From: SAR324 cluster bacterium REDSEA-S27_B3
GTDB lineage: Bacteria > SAR324 > NAC60-12
NCBI GenBank assembly: GCA_001627865.1
Contig: LUQO01000003.1
Coordinates: 1 to 64,000 of the forward strand
Direction: 5' to 3'
Length of the DNA: 64,000 bases
Shown piece after piece: positions 59,252 to 60,244 of the stretch. Both the position numbers and the translations under genes were made by a program. Every line of letters starts with the position of its first letter. Within the stretch, counting starts at the first letter, position 1. The notes beneath the pieces were generated by a model. The model saw only the letters and a program-made list of their open reading frames with translations, did not search any database and was not told the origin of the DNA.

Positions 59252-60244
59252 ATGCAGACAATTCAGCCTCAGATTAGAAACCTGAAGAGATTTAAACAAA
59301 TTTCCAGCGAAAATTTTTTGTTGGAAAATGCTAATAATTTAAAACAGTTACAAGAGGCAGTTAGAAGAAATTTGGGTAGTTCACTGCCTTTCTTATCTCA
59401 AATAGCAAACCACATGGTAAAACGAGGTAATAATCAGACTCGTGCCTTGGTTCTTCTCCAATCGGCCAGTCTTTTTAATAAACCAGATCAAGCTATTTTT
59501 GACATAGGCAGTACTTTGGAATATTTAAATACCGCGTCCGCATTGCATCAGCATATAAAAAATCCTGAGAATGCCAGACGTCGTCAGCAGTATGCCAAAG
59601 AAGTCTGGGGTAATGAAGTAAGCGTTTTATTAGGCGATTATCTGTTATCAATCTCATTTCAAGTCTTAACACAATTAGGAAATCTGGATGTGTTAGAGTG
59701 CATTTCTTTGGCTACACAAAATATCTCGCATGCTCAGGTTCTGGAAATATCTGAACATCCTCTGACTGCAACTCCAAATCACTGGCGCAGTGTTACAATT
59801 GGGAAAAAAGCAGGACTGTTTGGTGCAGGTGCACAAAGTGCTGCTTATTGGGGGAATTCCACAAAATCAACTGCTTTGACATTATTTGCATTTGGTGAGC
59901 ATGTGGGTATGGCAACTAAATTGAAATCCGATATGAAAGTCATTGCCGATGAAAAACTGATAAAGCAGAAAATAACAAAACATGAATTGTGGTCGCCACT
60001 TTGTTTTTTGCTTTATGAATGTGTGCCAGAGAATGAACGGAGCGAATTTTTATATAAATTGAAAAATCAATCTGATAATCCTGAACTGATCACAGAAATA
60101 GTCCATCTTCTGAAAAAATATGATGTTTCTGACATTCTTAAATACGAAGCAGAACTGGAACTGAAACAGGCAAAAGAATGTCTTTTAAAGCTGGAAATGG
60201 ACACGGCACCTCTTCAACCTCTTACTAAATTTTCCGTTATTTAA
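59252..60244 (+). CDS. Polyprenyl-synthetase-like protein lacking both Asp-rich motifs
   Basis: A 330-residue protein with the helical layout of trans-prenyltransferases: SSLPFLSQIANHMVKRGN (for KRxRP), IFDIGSTLEYLNTASALHQH, LGDYLLSISFQVLTQLGN (for GDYLLxxxF), IGKKAGLFGAGAQSAAYWG (for KTaxLF) and FGEHVGMATKLKSDMK. At the first site the expected LxHDDxxD is LHQHIKNPE; at the second, FQIxDDxxD is TKLKSDMKVI. Both Mg-diphosphate-binding motifs are therefore lost. It is probably non-catalytic, perhaps a partner of an active synthase. It ends 1 bp before the next gene. Confidence 0.6.
   Translation: MQTIQPQIRNLKRFKQISSENFLLENANNLKQLQEAVRRNLGSSLPFLSQIANHMVKRGNNQTRALVLLQSASLFNKPDQAIFDIGSTLEYLNTASALHQHIKNPENARRRQQYAKEVWGNEVSVLLGDYLLSISFQVLTQLGNLDVLECISLATQNISHAQVLEISEHPLTATPNHWRSVTIGKKAGLFGAGAQSAAYWGNSTKSTALTLFAFGEHVGMATKLKSDMKVIADEKLIKQKITKHELWSPLCFLLYECVPENERSEFLYKLKNQSDNPELITEIVHLLKKYDVSDILKYEAELELKQAKECLLKLEMDTAPLQPLTKFSVI

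Follow-up and report, generated by a model that had tools for sequence, protein, structure and literature searches.

An aspartate-less polyprenyl-synthetase paralogue in a family of SAR324 bacteria as a candidate non-catalytic partner of a long-chain prenyl synthase

Aspartate-less partners of the synthases that build quinone side chains are known from mitochondria, and the loss of one of them, PDSS2, causes human disease. Heteromeric long-chain synthases also occur in Bacillus (HepS/HepT) and Micrococcus (HexA/HexB), and component I of the Bacillus enzyme, HepS, belongs to PF07307. In the literature consulted, the small subunit of the bacterial heteromeric synthases is of a very different kind. 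The "D-less" homologues Dlp1 (S. pombe) and PDSS2 (human) each assemble with an intact subunit into a heterotetramer (PMC4049637). Other non-catalytic partners are bacterial HexA and HepS and the small subunit (SSU) of the mint geranyl diphosphate synthase (GPPS), which lacks the DDxxD motif, regulates an intact large subunit (LSU), and assembles with it in an (LSU.SSU)2 tetramer (PMC7839719). A search confined to open-access papers turned up no description of an aspartate-less PF00348 subunit in bacteria.

The D-less polyprenyl-synthetase paralogue studied here (dPPS) lies in a window of 64,000 nucleotides (the whole stretch of DNA analysed, from contig LUQO01000003.1 of SAR324 cluster bacterium REDSEA-S27_B3), and its features are collected in Table 1. 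Against the Pfam model PF00348 (polyprenyl synthetase), it scores 84 bits (cut-off 27, E 1.3e-23), with homology across the entire domain, and the same model matches all 23 aligned orthologues. The fold is considered safe because a profile of the orthologues aligns over ~300 residues with solved IspB-type structures (best 3wjk, E 1.7e-48); AlphaFold on the single sequence returned a pLDDT of 36, useless as a fold model. The first-pass annotation had described a prenyltransferase homologue that lacks both Asp-rich motifs and retains the GDYLL and K-x-LF landmarks, and each of these points holds: the motif positions read QHIKN and SDMKV, WGNEVSVLLGDYLLSISF occupies residues 119-136, and GKKAGLF residues 184-190. 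The loss extends beyond what that annotation described and includes the GGKRLRP site.

Table 1. Features of dPPS and its neighbours (positions in the window)
Feature	Position	Strand	Detail
Upstream Cytochrom_C_asm (PF01578) membrane protein	58393..59217	+	next to dPPS in genus, G019, G023, G024, G025
dPPS (D-less polyprenyl-synthetase paralogue)	59252..60244	+	330 aa, ATG to TAA
Isopentenyl-diphosphate (IPP) site position	59423..59446	+	aa 58-65 RGNNQTRA; SGGKRLRP in intact synthases
First Asp-rich motif position	59549..59563	+	aa 100-104 QHIKN; DDVVD in the genome's own long-chain synthase
Helix E, dimer-interface part in this fold	59606..59674	+	aa 119-141, WGNEVSVLLGDYLLSISFQVLTQ; most conserved dPPS segment
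Helix F	59684..59752	+	aa 145-167; conserved within dPPS, diverged from intact enzyme; E162 to Q, Q165 to E
KKAGLF	59804..59821	+	aa 185-190; Lys185 = diphosphate-binding Lys position; Lys 23/24, Arg 1/24
Second Asp-rich motif (DDxxD) position, lost	59927..59941	+	aa 226-230 SDMKV, 1/3 Asp left
Crotonase/enoyl-CoA hydratase (NF004794), downstream	60246..61058	+	start codon 1 base after dPPS stop
FAD-linked oxidase with Fe-S domain	61162..64000	+	runs past window; same order in genus, G019, G025

Across the 24 dPPS orthologues, the first aspartate of the first motif is replaced by arginine (17) or glutamine (7), an intact second DDxxD is found in none, and Arg64 is the sole invariant residue at the former GGKRxRP site. 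Of the six motif aspartate positions, dPPS proteins keep none (6 proteins), one (15), or two (3), versus all six in intact synthases. Since it is common to 24 orthologues, the motif loss is not a matter of chance, and dPPS is, as judged from its sequence, apparently non-catalytic. The divergent dPPS L056 (G022:C5:181605-182498) keeps the first two aspartates of the second motif (QIHDDAQTC) and has no first motif, which suggests that the first Asp motif disappeared earlier than the second.

Motif loss taken alone would fit recent decay or an assembly error. This explanation is nevertheless refuted by the sharing of the loss across a 24-member clade together with low dN/dS values, and its probability is minute. 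The orthologues are all full-length and spread over eight genera, and pairwise dN/dS, well below 1, is 0.10-0.32 for dPPS versus 0.12-0.20 for the intact enzyme; dPPS is under purifying selection. The first-pass annotation had named restored motifs in close relatives as the observation that would overturn it; none of the 24 orthologues carries an intact Asp-rich motif. It had also called for a phylogeny of the degenerate group, in which the 24 dPPS form a single clade with a support of 100/100 against 47 intact synthases, a result repeated on a reduced set. The grouping of this clade with the intact paralogues of its own family has a support of only 61/28.

Among the 52 genomes of the phylum that were searched, dPPS occurs in 24 of the 31 belonging to its family, including 15 of the 17 of its genus; the remaining 21 yielded no orthologue. 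Of the seven family genomes in which it was not found, most are incomplete, with G020, at 92% completeness, as an exception. A candidate fragment in G028 was rejected, the match being the end of another prenyl synthase. Outside the phylum (331 of the 383 genomes searched), no match exceeded 197 bits, compared with 381-528 bits for dPPS proteins and 226 bits for the divergent dPPS of G022 in the same 383-genome search. The four extra-phylum matches (188-197 bits) fall within the score range of intact synthases, far below most dPPS.

The genome harbors only three PF00348 genes: dPPS, an intact synthase of the long-chain type (contig C34), and an intact one of the FPPS/IdsA type (contig C45). An intact synthase elsewhere in the genome, which the first-pass annotation proposed to look for, is present as the long-chain enzyme on C34, and an intact long-chain synthase accompanies dPPS in 24/24 dPPS-bearing genomes. 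The only UbiA-superfamily proteins found are MenA, which adjoins MenB, and CtaB (haem O synthase). UbiA itself was not found in the assembly; because the assembly is 88% complete, this absence is not final. On the basis of MenA and MenB, CtaB, and the lack of a detected UbiA, the polyprenyl diphosphate most likely serves menaquinone. The presence of MenA and MenB with no UbiA found does not match a ubiquinone-synthesis role of the Dlp1/PDSS2 type for dPPS.

The reading that we favor, with slightly more confidence than doubt, is that dPPS is a non-catalytic partner of the C34 long-chain synthase in the making of the menaquinone chain, a bacterial analogue of Dlp1/PDSS2. dPPS would pair with the intact C34 synthase via a helix E/F face, and the polyprenyl diphosphate that MenA turns into menaquinone would be the product of both subunits. 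Both Asp-Mg sites and all chain elongation would come from the intact subunit, and dPPS would stabilise the active dimer, determine how long the chain grows, or help to release the product, as described for Dlp1/PDSS2 with Dps1/PDSS1. We infer the physical pairing, the choice of the C34 enzyme as partner, and the effect of dPPS on chain length.

To locate conservation, dPPS was cut into segments, and the identity of each segment among dPPS proteins was set against that among the family's intact enzymes. Helix E has an identity of 0.84 in dPPS versus 0.80 in the intact enzyme. Helix F reaches 0.69 versus 0.79, and identity between the two enzymes in this helix is 0.32. Values drop to 0.45 versus 1.00 at the first Asp motif, 0.41 versus 0.94 at the IPP site, and 0.48 versus 0.81 in helix H, which includes the second motif. 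A dimer helix that is kept next to an active site that has been released is the pattern that would be expected of a non-catalytic partner. Because the chain tunnel is also lined by helix E, conservation of this helix is no proof of pairing. The dimer interface of trans-prenyltransferases is usually formed by helices E and F (PMC7261888). In these helices, the intact partner shows no clear excess of interface-specific change over families without dPPS. Of the 24 dPPS, 22 retain the alanine at the fifth position ahead of the first motif, which marks long-chain enzymes (PMC5335738).

Homology, the disappearance of every catalytic motif, purifying selection, the co-occurring intact synthase, the retained helix E, and the menaquinone genes argue for the partner reading. 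Against it stand the drift of helix F, the 7 of 31 family genomes in which no dPPS was found, the lack of a clear interface change in the intact enzyme, and a dPPS gene that is not adjacent to the intact synthase gene.

In the former active site, the basic residues Arg64 (24/24), Arg109 (24/24), and Lys185 (23/24) are kept, at positions that contact the diphosphates in intact enzymes. His99 is invariant, and the helix F swap is shared across dPPS (E162Q in 24/24, Q165E in 22/24). No such constraint is seen at positions 101, 103, and 104 or in the second motif, which differ freely from one orthologue to the next. With its metal-binding acids lost and its cations kept, the dead site may bind diphosphate in a metal-free manner.

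The retention of Arg64, Arg109, and Lys185 makes a stand-alone pseudoenzyme that binds a prenyl diphosphate the main rival, a reading that we hold to be unlikely but deserving of serious consideration. A dPPS homodimer would bind a prenyl (or other) diphosphate without Mg2+ and act as a sensor, carrier, or regulator for the neighboring membrane protein or crotonase, not for the synthase. Besides the retained diphosphate-holding residues, the charge of the first-motif aspartate is removed or reversed in all dPPS, and the swapped pair in helix F is itself conserved. The dPPS gene abuts the crotonase gene, and its neighbors are constant across the genus, G019, and G025. However, the more deeply branching G018, G021, and G026 have other neighbors, and the GGK portion of the IPP site and the remaining pocket vary freely. 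The pattern of cations and charges is not explained by pairing alone and can be taken either as the mark of this rival or as an addition to the partner reading. In the latter form, to which we assign a rather low probability, dPPS would be a D-less PDSS2-like subunit that arose by independent duplication of the family's own long-chain synthase, and its dead, cationic site would sense prenyl diphosphate without metal and so control either the supply of menaquinone or the length of its chain.

The polar residues that persist in the old active site could also serve a different catalyst, in which the basic pocket and the invariant His99 would run a metal-independent reaction on a prenyl diphosphate. 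We consider this very improbable: positions 101, 103, and 104 and the second motif are free to vary, and no all-alpha trans-prenyl synthase is known to work without its Asp-Mg sites.

In the genus, the gene order is Cytochrom_C_asm membrane protein, dPPS, crotonase, and FAD/Fe-S oxidase. G019 and G025 have this order with a recJ-like gene upstream, and G024 has the recJ-like gene, the membrane protein, and dPPS; we take this gene to be recJ-like from its sequence. The neighbors of dPPS depart from the genus order in G018, G021, and G026. The upstream membrane protein scores far below the CcsB cut-off (25.8 versus 187.6 bits) and has no WD pair, and therefore no WWD haem motif; by sequence, it is probably HemX/YpjD-like and not CcsA. 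The first-pass annotation had offered two functions for dPPS, a regulatory or small-subunit partner and a new function near haem/cytochrome assembly. The former stands as the best-supported reading, with an intact long-chain synthase in all 24 genomes. The latter is weak and finds no support here, because the membrane protein barely matches CcsB and lacks the WD pair, and the neighborhood is not clade-wide.

Three genes upstream of dPPS lies a degenerate EAL-type (cyclic-di-GMP phosphodiesterase-like) protein (55906-56901, +; PF00563 16.7 bits, cut-off 31.3) that is conserved across the genus. It is possibly a second pseudoenzyme in the same conserved block. Elsewhere in the window, a RarA/MgsA-type AAA ATPase (30321-32528, -) carries ~300 extra C-terminal residues past the MgsA_C domain, which may be a second domain fused to it. 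The core SIEEIFHLITQ is common to two neighboring paralogues (38906-40102 and 40267-41289, -) that resemble secreted proteins or lipoproteins.

If the partner reading is true, it would show that a simple duplication followed by the loss of catalysis is enough to produce a D-less partner, and dPPS would be a prokaryotic model for the role of the dead subunit.

Several known systems share features with dPPS. IspB-type octaprenyl diphosphate synthases are its closest solved structures (3wjk) and have the same helices; however, they have retained both Asp motifs as well as the IPP site, and they work as homodimers. HepS/HepT and HexA/HexB are, as proposed for dPPS, bacterial long-chain synthases with a non-catalytic partner. 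In contrast to HepS, dPPS scores only 15.6 bits against PF07307 (cut-off 30). Weak PF07307 matches occur in 14 of 23 dPPS versus 33 of 47 control intact synthases, with the better best E-value among the controls. A HepS small-subunit signature in dPPS was thus rejected and the match assigned to superfamily background, since intact synthases match the model at least as well. The mint SSU, like the proposed dPPS, lacks DDxxD, is non-catalytic, and has an intact partner. However, it is a plant protein with a short-chain product and ~15% identity to other enzymes, whereas helix E of dPPS is nearly intact.

The closest likeness in anatomy is to Dlp1/PDSS2, the decaprenyl diphosphate synthase subunit: dPPS is also of the PF00348 type, is devoid of the Asp motifs, and has an intact long-chain synthase alongside in a quinone-making organism. 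It differs in being bacterial and in its apparent link to menaquinone rather than ubiquinone. dPPS resembles Dlp1/PDSS2 as a putative analogue.
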